Assembly: GCA_963575645.1 (NCBI GenBank)
Contig: OY754466.1
Location: 46,346,001-46,410,000 of the forward strand
Source of the DNA: Xanthostigma xanthostigma
Taxonomy: Eukaryota; Arthropoda; Insecta; Raphidioptera; Raphidiidae
Direction of reading: 5' to 3'
Length of the DNA stretch: 64,000 nt
A program made the translations under genes and the position numbers. Under the pieces are notes generated by a model. It was not told where the DNA came from. It searched no databases and worked only from the letters and a program-made list of their open reading frames with translations. Of the stretch, positions 9,467 through 63,978 are shown one piece after another; positions within the stretch are counted from its first letter, which is position 1, and every line of letters begins with the position of its first letter.

Positions 9467-10261
9467 CAGAATGATTTTTAAGTTGATTCTTCTTTTTTTA
9501 CCAACACGTAGAAATCAAATAGACGAACAAATATTTTAAGTGACTTTTTTATCAAAACTCAAAAATAAGAGAGAAACAGCCGTTCAAAGTTTTTTTAAAT
9601 GTTATTTCATTAACTTAAAAGCCCGGTTTACACACACGCAAAGAAATGATAGCACAAATTGGAAATGTATCCCAAATAATTCGCGGAAGGCCCTTATTGT
9701 TACTACAGAAGCATGGCTACGACGCACGCATCTTTGTGTCCAGCAAAGCGGGGACAAATTCAAACAATTTCTGTGAATACTTGATAATGACGTAACATAT
9801 TTCCATAGTGACATAACATAACGCCAGGACCGACCTTAAAATTTGATAAAAATTAATAAAACTTTGTAAGCCAGTTTCATTTTAGAGTAGTGATTAAAAA
9901 GTTACTTGAAATATTAAATTTTATCAAATTTATGTCGGTCCTGGCGTTATGTTATGTCACTATGGAAATATGTTATGTCATTATCGCTTTGTTGGACACA
10001 AAGATGCGTGCGTCGTAGCCATGCTTCTGTAGTAGCAATAAGGGCCTTCCGCGAATTATTTGGGATGCATTTCCGATTTGTGCTATCATTTCTTCGCGTG
10101 TGTAAACCGAGCTTTTAAGTTAATGAAATAAAAAAAAAACTTTGAACGCCTGTTTTTCTTTTATTTTTGAGTTTTGATTAAAAAGTTACTTGTAATATTT
10201 GTTCGTCTATTTGATTTCTACACGTTGTTCAAAAACAAGAATCAACTTAAAAATTAGCCTG
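9467..10261. mobile_element. 795-bp fold-back element, TA-flanked
   Basis: Two arms of about 365 bases are inverted copies around a spacer near 9840-9890. Matching words include AAGTTGATTCTT, ATGATAGCACAAAT, TTCGCGGAAGGCCCTTATTG, GCATGGCTACGACGCACGCA and CACTATGGAAATATGTTA. The ends are CAGAATGATTTTTAAG and its near complement, each next to TA. TA duplication and CAG ends suggest the Tc1/mariner superfamily. The arms have diverged slightly, with small indels such as poly-T length. No transposase is encoded. Confidence 0.85.
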
Positions 10262-12117: not shown

Positions 12118-13304
12118 AATGCGATCGCCGACACGGACAGTTTGGTTTGAACTTTGTGTCTAGCTTAGTTATCACTGGTGTAATTCTAGTTGCAATGGTC
12201 TCAAACTCATATTTACTCATCCTAAAATATTTAAAGAATCTGTCCTCATCATTCACAATCTCCTTATACAGGGTGAGTCAGACCACCCGTATCAGTCGTT
12301 TTTTTCGAAAACGGTTAGTCGTAGAGAGTTGTGTCAAAAATCTGTATTATAAAAGCCCTAATGAAGAATCGAATGGTGATATTTTTTCCCCCCGGAAAGG
12401 TCGGCTTCCCTGTTAGTTTGCTCCGAAATGTTCAGAACTCCGGAATGTTAAATAGCACGATAGGTCGAAAGTGGTATTGTTGAAAAGATCTTTAAAAAAT
12501 AAGCAAGTTTTGTAGGACATTTTTTTTTTTTGTTACTGCCACCCCTGTTAAGTAATATTCGTTTGAAATTATTAAATTAACATGTAAGAAAAACAAACTT
12601 AATTTTAAAAATTGGCATTTAAAATCTAGTTACCTAATTAAACAATGTCACAAATGTTCAAACTGTCTTCAATTTACTTCTAAACACTGCGGAGCTCTTC
12701 TAGATATGTTATGAGTACCTGGAAGTATTTTCCGACAAAAAAAAACAATTGTAATTATTGAAAACGTATTGTGACATTGTTTAATTAGGTAACTAGATTT
12801 TAAATGCCGACTTTTTGTTATTCTGATATGTTAATTTCATAATTTCAAACGAATATTACTTAACAGGGGTGGCAGTAACAAAAAAAAAATGTCCTACAAA
12901 ACTTGCTTATTTTTTAAAGATCTTTTCAACAATACCACTTTCGACCTATTAACATTCCGGAGTTCTGAACATTCCGGAGCAAACTAACAGGGAAGCCGAC
13001 CTTTCCGGGGGGGAAAAATATCACCATTCGATTCTTCATTAGGGCTTTTATAATACAGATTTTTGAGACAACTCTCTACGACTAACCGTTTTCGAAAAAA
13101 ACGACTGATACGGGTGGTCTGACTCACCCTGTATAATGTGTAGAATTCTTCTTCTTTTTTTCGTTTTGAGTTCATGGGATGCACTGCAAACCTTCTTTTT
13201 CTTTGTTGCAATTCTACACAACCCGATTCTTCCTGTTCTAGTAAAATTGCCATCAAGGCTAGTTCTTCTATCGAAAAATTGCGGAACATGGTATGCACGG
13301 GCAC
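12118..13304 (-). pseudogene. HARBI1-like transposase N-terminus, split by an insertion
   Basis: The first part (13304 down to 13132) reads FRNFSIEELALMAILLEQEE, then RRFAVHPMNSKRKKEEEFYT, the usual start of insect Harbinger nucleases (family pattern RRFWVHPIN..R...GEF.TL). After the fold-back element the frame resumes at 12268 with KEIVNDEDRFFKYFRMSKYE, again as in the family (YFRMS...F). Soon after ATRITPVITKLD the resemblance ends at an internal deletion. The catalytic DDE domain is absent. Read across the insertion with one TA removed, the two parts join in frame at Leu-Tyr-Lys. Confidence 0.8.
12269..13131. mobile_element. 863-bp fold-back element (CAGGGTGAGTC family), copy 1
   Basis: It is TA-flanked and starts CAGGGTGAGTCAGACCACCC, with the reverse complement at the right end. 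The two halves are inverted copies meeting near 12700; matching words include CCGGAAAGGTCGGCTTCCC and ACCCCTGTTAAGTAATATTC. It sits inside the Harbinger transposase. TA duplication and CAGGGTG-type ends suggest Tc1/mariner-related mobilisation. A second full copy is at 20011-20889. Confidence 0.88.
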
Positions 13305-19635: not shown

Positions 19636-22114
19636 AAAGGGTATAGCCGGATAGATATGGCGACTGGCGAGTTGGCCCCCAAATGGCAAGCTATATCGAA
19701 ACTTATGTTTTAATATCTACTTGATGTACAAACTCTTTTTATATATGTGTTACCCCCGCACTCCCCTTTGACCTTGAGATATAGAGCAAAAACCAGCCTA
19801 CCTACGGCTATCGTTCAAAGAGTCATATCTCGAAAACTAATTGAGCTAAAGAGGTAAAACCAACGCGAGCTTTTAGGTAACCTTTAAGAGCACATTTTAT
19901 ATTTTTCTTGGATTTTTGCGAATAATTACACACAATATTAAAACATAAATAAAAATATAATTTTCATTTTTTCAGTGTTCTCTGTGACTTACAATCACTG
20001 AAATAATATACAGGGTGAGTCAGACCACCCGTATCAGTCGTTTTTTTCGAAAACAGTTAGTCGTAGAGAGTTGTGTCAAAAATCTGTATTATAAAAGCCC
20101 TAATGAAGAATCGAATTGTGATATTTTTCCCCCCCGGAAAGGTCGGCTTCCCTGTTAGTTTGCTCCGGAATGTTCAGAACTCCGGAATGTTAAAATTTTT
20201 AAATGACACGATAGGTCGAAAGTGGAATTGTTGAAAAGATCTTTAAAAAATAAGCAAGTTTTGTAGGACATTTTTTTTTGTTACTGCCACCCCTGTTAAG
20301 TAATATTCGTTTGAAATTATTAAATTAACATGTAAGAATAGCAAACTTAATTTTAAAAGTTGGCATTTAAAATCTAGTTACCTAATTAAACAATGTCACA
20401 AATGTTCAAACTATCTTCAATTTACTTCTAAACACTGCAGAGCTCTTCTAGATATGTTATGAGTACCTGGAAGTATTTTCCGACAAAAAAAAACAATTGC
20501 AATTATTGAAAACTTATTGTGACATTGTTTAATTAGGTAACTAGATATTAAATGCCGACTTTTTTGTTATTCTGACATGTTAATTTAATAATTTCAAACG
20601 AATATTACTTAACAGGGGTGGCAGTAACAAAAAAAAATGTCCTACAAAACTTGCTTATTTTTTAAAGATCTTTTCAACAATTCCACTTTCGACCTATCGT
20701 GCCATTTAACATTCCGGAGTTCTGAACATTCCGGAGCAAACTAACAGGGAAGCCGACCTTTCCGGGGGGGGAAAAATATCACCATTCGATTCTTCATTAG
20801 GGCTTTTATAACACAGATTTTTGAGACAACTCTCTACGACTAACCGTTTTCGAAAAAAACGACTGATACGGGTGGTCTGACTCACCCTGTATGTTGTGGC
20901 ACTTGATATGCACTACTACTCATACAAATTGCGTTAGAAAAAAATTGGTGCAACACTTTGAAAAAAAAAAATTTGACGCGCATCACATCATATAAGGATA
21001 CAAACTTGACATAGTACACACATATATAAATATTTTATAAATTAAAATAATTGTTAGAACGAATTGAATGAAAATATAAACAATTGTCAGGAAAATATTG
21101 GTTTCATACGGCGCGGTGCCGGGAATTATACGAGCGACAGCGAGTTCGAACTTAACGTTAAGACTTTATTTATTTACGCCACCATGGCATCATTTTCTGT
21201 CGGAAGTAGCTATTATTTATTATTTGTATAGCTATTATTTATTATTTGTAGCTATTATTTTATTTTGTTATCTATAATAATGTCAGATAATATGTGTAAA
21301 AAAATAAGGTTCTTCGTAAGATTACGGGTTATAAAAAAGTTATCAAAACTGACAAAGACGCTAATTAGTTTAATTAATTTAATGAAATTATGACTTGGTG
21401 ATGTAAACACATAAACAGTCTTAACTCTTAAGCACGTAAAACGCACGAAATAACAAGCAGGGCAATAACAAGTACGAACTCGCTGTCGCTCGTATAATTC
21501 CCGGCACCGCGCCGTATGAAACCAATATTTTCCTGACAATTGTTTATATTTTCATTCAATCCGTTCTAACAATAATTTTAATTTATAAAATATTTATATA
21601 TGTGTGTACTATGTCAAGTTTGTATCCTTATATGATGTGATGCGCGTCAAAAAATTTTTTTTTCAAAGTGTTCAGTGTTGCACCAACTTTCTTCTAACGC
21701 AATTTGTATGAGTAGTAGTGCATATCAAGTGCCACAACATATATTATTTCAGTGATTGTAAGTCACAGAGAACACTGAAAAAATGAAAATTATATTTTTA
21801 TTTATGTTTTAATATTGTGTGTAATTATTCGCAAAAATCCAAGAAAAATATAAAATGTGCTCTTAAAGGTTACCTAAAAGCTCGCGTTGGTTTTACCTCT
21901 TTAGCTCAATTAGTTTTCGAGATATGACTCTTTGAACGATAGCCGTAGGTAGGCTGGTTTTTGCTCTATATCTCAAGGTCAAAGGGGAGTGCGGGGGTAA
22001 CACATATATAAAAAGAGTTTGTACATCAAGTAGATATTAAAACATAAGTTTCGATATAGCTTGCCATTTGGGGGCCAACTCGCCAGTCGCCATATCTATC
22101 CGGCTATACCCTTT
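19636..22114. mobile_element. 2.5-kb palindrome (long-arm fold-back element) with a nested insertion
   Basis: The ends are AAAGGGTATAGCCGGATAG and its exact complement. The left arm runs to about 21140 and the right arm from about 21485. Paired words include GGCGACTGGCGAGTTGGCC, GTTACCCCCGCACTCCCC, AACCAACGCGAGCTTTTAGG and CCGGGAATTATACGAGCG. The unpaired loop is about 345 bases. The left arm carries an extra 879-bp element that the right arm lacks. Arm matching is very high, with small differences such as an extra CAGTGTT in the right arm. No protein is recognised and the target duplication is unclear. Confidence 0.85.
20011..20889. mobile_element. 879-bp fold-back element (CAGGGTGAGTC family), copy 2
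   Basis: It has the same ends and inverted halves as 12269-13131. It lies in the left arm of the large palindrome between TA and TA. The right arm holds the uninterrupted sequence with one TA (complement of AATAATATATGTTGTGG near 21740), so target, duplication and insert limits are read directly. Confidence 0.9.
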
Positions 22115-54320: not shown

Positions 54321-55037
54321 TAGTTATGTTCGGTGAATATGGCCGTAAGAGGAACAGAGATAACACAATAAGCGTAGTTTTCGTAAAAATCTCGACTAGA
54401 CGATATTTCTGCAGTTTGGACTGGTTTCACTGTATCTTACTTTTAAATTTTGTCGACATATTAAACAATTGACAGTTCACAAATACAGAAAAAATGCACT
54501 GACGATGCTTTATTGTAAAACTTTTAGAACACGCTGACAAATTGAAATAAATGATCGAATTGTAGCTAAAAATAAAAGAAAATCCCATCTGGATTATGAT
54601 AACGGGTTACGACCGTTGCAATAGGCAAGGAGTATAGAACCAGGATAACCAAGGAGTCGTAAAACAAGGAAGGGACGCAATTTAAAACAGATGCGACTCC
54701 AAGTTGATGGCGGTTGGTTCAATACGCTGCTCCAAAGAATGATGTATTATATATTTTGTCTGTCTAATGTACAGAATGTTTTTTTAAAAATGTTCAATCA
54801 TAAAGAAGAAGATTTAGAGTAGTAATCGTTTAGTGTCTAAAAAAGTTGCAGATTTGCAAAACGCATGAAACATGAAGAGATTTACAATATTTAGAAAAAT
54901 ATGTAAATTTCTCCGATGCTTAATATTATGTCATATATCTCGATTAGTTTAGACGCTATGACAGTTTTAAATGTATAAATATTTAAACAGAGTATAAAAA
55001 GAGTATATGAACGTCATAAATATAGGTATAATAAAAT
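54321..55037. other. AT-rich sequence without recognised features
   Basis: Nothing supported. Confidence 0.4.
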
Positions 55038-55530
55038 TAAAATAAAATATTTTTAACAAAAAAATAGAACCGACTTCACACTAAAAAGTAAAAAATAATT
55101 GCGTATTGAAATGTTTTGGAGTCGGTGTCAGCCAAAATGAAATCTATTCCGAGAACTACACCGACTCCAAAACATTTCAATACGCAATTATTTTTTACTT
55201 TTTAGTGTGAAGTCGGTTCTATTTTTTTGTTAAAAATATTTTATTTTTCTCTTTTTAGTGTTAATCTAACACTAAAAATCGGTGAACATACATAAAAAAC
55301 ATTATGCGTGCCTTTGAAATTTGAGAGTTTCCCTCGATTTCTCCGGATTCCACCATCATATTCTGACTTGATTCCGATGGGACCACCTCTGAGGTGCACT
55401 CTTTCAAATAAAAAAAAAATTTGAAAATCGGTCCATAATTGACGGAAAAATCGGTGAACGTACATAAAAAAAAAAAAATATATACAGACGAACATAGAAC
55501 CTCCTCCTTTTTGTTGAAGTCGGTTAAAAA
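55038..55530 (-). mobile_element. Lepidoptera-type AACCGACTTC repeat with a fold-back end
   Basis: On the minus strand it reads AACCGACTTCAACAAAAAGG, GGAGGAGGTTCTATGTTCG, GTGCACCTCAGAGGTGGTCC and so on to AATAGAACCGACTTCACAC. The last 208 bases (55038-55245) form a hairpin with arms of about 80 bases around AATGAAATCTATTCCG. I recall this repeat as widespread in moths and butterflies. Target duplication and superfamily are not determined. Confidence 0.65.
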
Positions 55531-63373: not shown

Positions 63374-63978
63374 AAAAAAAAATATTTACCGTTCACTTTT
63401 TACGGGTTATTAACTACTGGCCAAAGAGCCCGTCGGCAAAAATTTTACTGATACATACTCTCTCCAAACTTTGTATATGGTTTCATTAGGCCTAGTCTGA
63501 CATTTATTTCCTCTATGACTTTTCTTAATTTTGGGGCGTTTTCCCTCTAAATTTTCCGAAAGATGTCGTTTTGACAACATGTAAAAAATGTATAGATACT
63601 ATTTGTTTTTTAATTGGATAGCTTAAAAACTTCAACCAAAACGCTAAAATAATGTTCTGTGACAAATAACATGAACCATTTAAAATGTCTGACACCTCGA
63701 ATATGTTCGACATATTCGAGGTGTCAGACATTTGAAATTAAAAAACAAACAGTATCTATAAATTTTTTACATGTCGTCATAACGAAATCTTTCGGAAAAT
63801 TTAGAGGGAAAACGTCCCAAAATCAAAAAAAGTCATGGAGGAAATAGGTGTCAGACTAGGCCTAATGAAGCCATATACAAAGTTTGGAGAGAGTATGTAT
63901 CAGTAAAATTTTTGCCGACGGGCACTCTGACTATACATGTTTAGAACCCGTGAAAAGTGAACGGTAAATATTTTTTTT
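63374..63978. mobile_element. 605-bp fold-back element with an inner perfect hairpin
   Basis: The arms (about 245 bases) pair through TATTTACCGTTCAC, CCGTCGGCAAAAATTTTACT, CTCTCTCCAAACTTTGTATA and TTAGGCCTAGTCTGACA. In the loop, 63683-63733 is itself a perfect 23-bp-stem hairpin (ATGTCTGACACCTCGAATAT and complement) with loop TTCGA. The rest of the loop, 63618-63682, is unpaired. Target duplication is not resolved. Confidence 0.85.

Follow-up and report, generated by a model that had tools for sequence, protein, structure and literature searches.

The inverted repeat at positions 19636-22114 of the window (the whole 64,000-nucleotide stretch of Xanthostigma xanthostigma DNA analysed here) is very probably the product of a nested insertion, in which a fold-back element with near-identical arms, here termed FB-A, was placed in a Spy-like manner and a second fold-back element, FB-B, then entered its left arm. 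Nesting here is of an ordinary kind. FB-A would be a non-autonomous fold-back DNA transposon of ~1.6 kb with terminal inverted repeats of ~640 bp, set between AAA and TTT, its arms near-identical, by a Spy-like transposase (PHIS superfamily) acting in trans. FB-B, also a putatively non-autonomous fold-back, subsequently entered an ATAT target in the left arm of FB-A and duplicated TA. Sequence comparison shows the ends, target types, copy families, empty sites, and order, the identity of both transposases being inferred. Prior to the second insertion, the arms would have been made alike by copying from one to the other in the mobile lineage, whether by template switching inside the fold-back or by gap repair. 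As a dated record on a small scale, the locus preserves both an order of events and a clock that is independent of the arms.

The inverted repeat consists of arms of ~640 bp and a loop of 316 nt (21154-21469, forward strand). The portion of the left arm outside the insertion (19636-20010, forward strand) has 375 nt and is 100% complementary to the outer part of the right arm (21740-22114), and the portion inside the insertion (20890-21153, forward strand) has 94.5% identity, gaps present, to 21470-21741; the right arm as a whole (21470-22114, reverse strand, 645 nt) is uninterrupted. This alignment agrees with the first-pass annotation, which had described the arms as almost identical apart from the insert. 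Across 617 aligned columns, the arms differ at 417, 421, 527, and 540 and in a run at 446-449, all inward of the FB-B insertion (the outer 416 columns show no difference), and the right arm carries an extra 7-bp tandem duplication relative to the left. Arm identity across hundreds of bases exceeds chance. Under a Spy reading, the target bases are AAA at 19636-19638 and TTT at 22112-22114, and the element proper would extend from 19639 to 22111. Three other readings of the palindrome were dropped: a structured loop, as the fold is unremarkable (z -1.5; 6 of 100 shuffles fold equally well); a hairpin-RNA gene, as the scored arm matches represent further copies of this one dispersed element; and coding capacity, as the sole stop-to-stop frame of at least 130 codons in the window is located elsewhere and has no Pfam match. 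A search of the window against Rfam returned a single weak tRNA match, away from the palindrome. The window contains other inverted-repeat pairs with arms that are 89-96% complementary (63422-63929, 9494-10235, and 55029-55257).

Judged by sequence, the palindrome belongs to a fold-back transposon family, FB-A, whose copies are dispersed through the genome. The best 40 of 229 candidates in a genome search with the right arm gave 43 rows, corresponding to 38 distinct elements including the window copy; the other elements among these candidates have ~94-95% identity, nearly all to the same outer base. A search with the whole stretch returned matches mostly to the FB-B insert rather than to FB-A. 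From 40 loci with arm matches, 36 complete copies were obtained, mostly of ~1555 bp (L009 and L019 were excluded as duplicates; L016 and L017, truncated in this set, are represented later by L082 and L083). All 36 start with AAAGGGTATAGCC (one with TAAGGG) and end with CCCTTT, the end sequence of the family being GGGTATAGCC. A 25-bp end motif occurs in the 623-Mb genome 90 times in forward and 95 times in reverse orientation (backward control, 0), and these 185 exact motifs indicate roughly 90 FB-A copies. Ten single-ended places were additionally sampled for older copies, of which only L110, L111, and L114 were complete within the stretch examined. Arms, loop, and ends are common to copies genome-wide and the flanks are different; the loop of the window copy and its edges are 86-90% identical to those of other copies. 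Long inverted arms make up most of the element and the middle is non-coding, as in foldback-like elements.

The inserted element, FB-B, occupies 20011-20889 (forward strand; 879 bp), has the ends CAGGGTGAGTCAGACC...GGTCTGACTCACCCTG, and contains no open frame of 130 codons. Copies of TA lie at 20009-20010 and 20890-20891 (forward strand), and the right arm has a single TA at 21740-21741 (reverse strand); the left arm therefore reads AATAATA-TA-(879 bp)-TA-TGTTGTGG and the right arm AATAATA-TA-TGTTGTGG. The exact ends and the TA duplication proposed from the sequence in the first-pass annotation thus hold to the base, and the right arm bears a clean single TA without a footprint rather than a deletion scar. 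A 27-bp end motif of FB-B (TA included) has 509 + 547 = 1,056 exact occurrences in the genome (backward control, 0), and among 41 aligned copies TA is found at the 5' side in 41 and at the 3' side in 39. One further copy, separate from the palindrome, 95% identical and TA-flanked, lies within the window at 12269-13131 (forward strand). FB-B, too, has long inverted arms that make up most of the element and a non-coding middle, and by sequence it is a second fold-back family, unrelated to FB-A.

Tc1/mariner-type DNA transposons use a TA target. FB-B, at most a candidate member of this group, resembles these elements in its duplicated TA and ATAT core (seen in the filled and empty arms; 39 of 41 copies are TA-flanked at both ends) and differs in being a non-coding fold-back of ~869 bp with no transposase linked to it. 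Four FB-B end pairs with wide spacing (L088-L091) yielded no autonomous partner. In one of these, L088 (G000:C1:115944-122507), the middle of the FB-B copy contains a long insert, and we take the two large open frames of this insert to resemble non-LTR retrotransposon proteins.

The order of events is established through the other FB-A copies. In the 44 other copies aligned, every one of the 88 arms is uninterrupted at the FB-B site (87 with one sequence and 1 with a variant; uncut arms checked), a count that leaves out three copies with deletions (L048, L045, and L103) and in which broken-arm copies may be under-represented because copies were gathered by arm similarity. The possibility that FB-B was inserted before the palindrome formed is rejected on the same count. 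The first-pass annotation held that comparison of the two arms in the window 'proves' palindrome first and insertion second. The events and their order stand, and the order no longer depends on the window palindrome alone; the verb was somewhat strong, since a precise loss of FB-B from the right arm would look identical, and the 88 empty arms supply the support that two arms by themselves did not quite give. A search for further copies, which the annotation had proposed, yielded the palindrome family, and none of the 44 other aligned copies has the insert at this site.

Such a loss defines one of the alternatives considered, namely that both arms formerly carried FB-B (through copying from one to the other or from an earlier stage) and that the right one then lost it precisely. 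A loss that is exact to the two TAs could in principle happen, and the position of one FB-A copy (L046) at mirrored sites of another fold-back element suggests that two-armed states may occur, but the 88 empty arms and the missing footprint render this highly improbable. The inverted orientation and near-identity of the arms would also be expected if local DNA had been duplicated once in inverted form to make the palindrome and a mobile element had then hit one arm; this is refuted by dispersed complete copies with the same arms, loop, and ends in different flanks, and we give it almost no credence. It is just as improbable that the palindrome is an assembly artefact, in which two haplotypes, with and without FB-B, were falsely joined as a fold-back: 36 complete copies, whether in the window or elsewhere, share the same two arms, the palindrome stops at the family ends on both sides, and other copies have a matching loop. 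Given a dispersed family, neither local duplication nor false join is required, and it is this dispersed status that the first-pass annotation, correct about the inverted repeat, missed in picturing a lone palindrome.

FB-A arms exchange sequence. Among 35 copies, 33 private substitutions are mirrored (present in both arms, in 12 copies) vs 60 that are found in one arm, and only ~0.16 mirrored substitutions are expected by chance under independent mutation. Divergence between an arm and its own partner averages 0.0056, as opposed to 0.0135 when partners are re-dealt (0 of 10,000 re-dealings as low). FB-B served as a control within the same genome: its 41 copies show 6 mirrored (in 3 copies) vs 127 unmirrored changes and no excess similarity of partner arms, and hence the two families differ sharply in arm homogenisation. 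With eleven copies added and L045 removed, 45 FB-A copies give 27 mirrored changes in 17 copies and 122 unmirrored ones. These counts omit L048, and the 45-copy set also omits L103 and L045 (deletions that misalign); for nine later copies, left and right arm labels were taken only from the loop-oriented reading. As relatives were added, mirrored private changes of the window copy fell from 11 to 5. Some of its changes also occur in L098, an older copy, either in both L098 arms (at 181, 397, 436, and 564) or in one (at 229, 302, and 538). For two of the one-armed sites, 229 and 302, the base of the family is found in the other arm of L098, so that arm copying took place in one of the two lineages (window or L098), these sites being compatible with either direction. 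In copy L058 (G000:C8:9862305-9864605), the variants at columns 137, 269, and 446 are those of one subfamily in one arm and of another subfamily in the other, a pattern expected of an ectopic-recombination chimera, which makes this copy a candidate rearrangement breakpoint.

As to the timing of exchange, the old copies (L098, L100, L110, and L101, i.e. the four with the most private unmirrored changes besides the window copy, under a cut-off chosen after viewing the data) have 4 mirrored and 55 unmirrored changes vs 18 and 61 in 40 others (Fisher p 0.017, or p 0.14 with the window copy, L001, counted among the old). Mirrored and unmirrored counts show no correlation over the 45 copies. Because the arms of old copies have mostly diverged, exchange probably occurs in the mobile lineage or at transposition, and the data are suggestive of independent decay thereafter. 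The window FB-B provides a separate estimate, with 4 strictly private substitutions, or 6 including changes shared with one other copy, in ~869 bases; this age predicts 5.7-8.5 arm differences since insertion, and ~5-6 events are seen. The total arm divergence of the window copy accordingly fits the age of FB-B, but its clustering is not predicted by plain clock-like divergence: the five substitution events are confined to 201 inner columns out of 617 (chance 0.004, for a statistic framed after viewing the data), and the outer 416 columns have 0 differences vs 3.8-5.7 expected since FB-B (P 0.022 to 0.003, with a post hoc boundary).

This undiverged outer segment and the many mirrored private changes are what would be expected if gene conversion continued after settlement and kept the arms alike, and we leave room for later conversion of the outer arm segment of the window copy. 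As a general account, continuing conversion is nevertheless unlikely, as it sits poorly with the agreement between total arm differences and FB-B age, with the mostly unmirrored changes of old copies (subject to the dependence on L001 noted above), and with the uncorrelated counts. The first-pass annotation had considered the palindrome either young or kept similar by exchange; both appear to apply, at different times, with arm copying in the lineage followed by divergence that matches the age of FB-B in total and departs from it in clustering. Within our preferred reading, in which copying preceded FB-B, homogenisation of the arms of fold-back transposons may be coupled to transposition itself, a possibility that we advance tentatively: during restoration of an excised copy by gap repair, the new strand would snap back and copy its own arm, and copies would be born with identical arms that then diverge. 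If so, nested inserts like FB-B would be clocks that date the last homogenisation. With ~90 copies, FB-A offers material for testing at what stage exchange between inverted arms takes place.

The target of FB-A is seen in ten of the 36 copies (L012, L013, L015, L041, L051, L056, L057, L063, L064, and L066), whose joined flanks, among the sequences compared, match clean AAATTT paralogous empty sites. The occupied sites read AAA(GGG...CCC)TTT, and a target duplication is absent. The matches are related repeats, some within the window itself, and the ten copies represent ~8 distinct targets, as the sites of L041/L064 and of L013/L066 coincide within one repeat. The exception is L042, with paralogous sites that lack ~4 bp rather than clean AAATTT; L046 has a match on one side only, and the remaining 24 copies have no junction-spanning match among the sequences compared, which likewise contain no empty site for the window copy. 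Spy transposons (PHIS superfamily) are described in excerpts of two sources as inserting within AAATTT without target duplication (PMC4482050, PMC11304231), and cgSpy is given terminal repeats of 467 bp in the latter excerpt (PMC11304231). To the extent of these accounts, FB-A is like Spy in its AAATTT target and lack of target duplication, long terminal repeats being found in Spy as well; it is unlike Spy in that it has no coding capacity seen, is mostly inverted repeat, and has no Spy transposase linked to it. For the Pfam domain DDE_Tnp_4, which we take to represent PIF/Harbinger-like transposases, at least 151 matches (best 150 of 264 candidates) were recorded genome-wide. None was seen beside an FB-A end among the first 100 of the 185 ends, and with no such match tied to FB-A it is target choice that points to Spy membership. 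For neither FB-A nor FB-B did a partial search reveal a relative that carries a transposase. By an eye count, ~90 of ~150 listed DDE_Tnp_4 matches are on one contig (G000:C10), nearly all in one stretch at ~8.6-16.4 Mb, and many of the frames are stop-free.

The locus L046 (also L080 and L081; G000:C6:48612361-48614576) involves a third family of fold-back elements, FB-C, of which L092 contains a full copy at about 201-1954. At this locus, an FB-A copy takes the place of the ~850 bp that separate a mirrored pair of AAATTT sites in FB-C, its ends abutting these sites exactly, so that FB-C flanks it for ~452 bp in either direction (99.3%) as the outer part of a larger palindrome centred on FB-A. 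This arrangement would be compatible with recombination after two insertions and also with insertion into an extruded stem. FB-C copies also include nearly loopless palindromes of many arm lengths in which the outer end is kept (e.g. G000:C3:25989323-25989826 and C7:45791228-45791929), as if repeatedly deleted at the centre.

Comparable fold-back elements are known from Drosophila. Tetris, a foldback element of Drosophila virilis, is characterised in an excerpted account as apparently non-autonomous with long TIRs, the internal repeats of which are suggested to be homogenised (PMC4079207). As far as that account goes, FB-A is like Tetris in the first two respects; the internal repeats of Tetris TIRs are tandem, and none were seen in FB-A. 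Galileo of Drosophila buzzatii (P superfamily, Foldback-like) has, in its GalileoN form, TIRs of ~575 bp and a middle of ~350 bp according to a source that also reports 7-bp target duplications for Galileo, two GalileoN copies that are chimeric through ectopic recombination, and two others with TIRs that are >99% identical within a copy and ~7% divergent between copies (PMC2775673). The same source implicates long inverted repeats of such type in chromosomal inversions (Galileo; PMC2775673). FB-A is unlike Galileo, as far as the latter is described there, in having no target duplication, its ten empty sites leaving no room for 7 bp. It is like GalileoN in architecture and in having arms that are alike within a copy and divergent between copies, and the within-copy arm identity of FB-A is thus an already known phenomenon.
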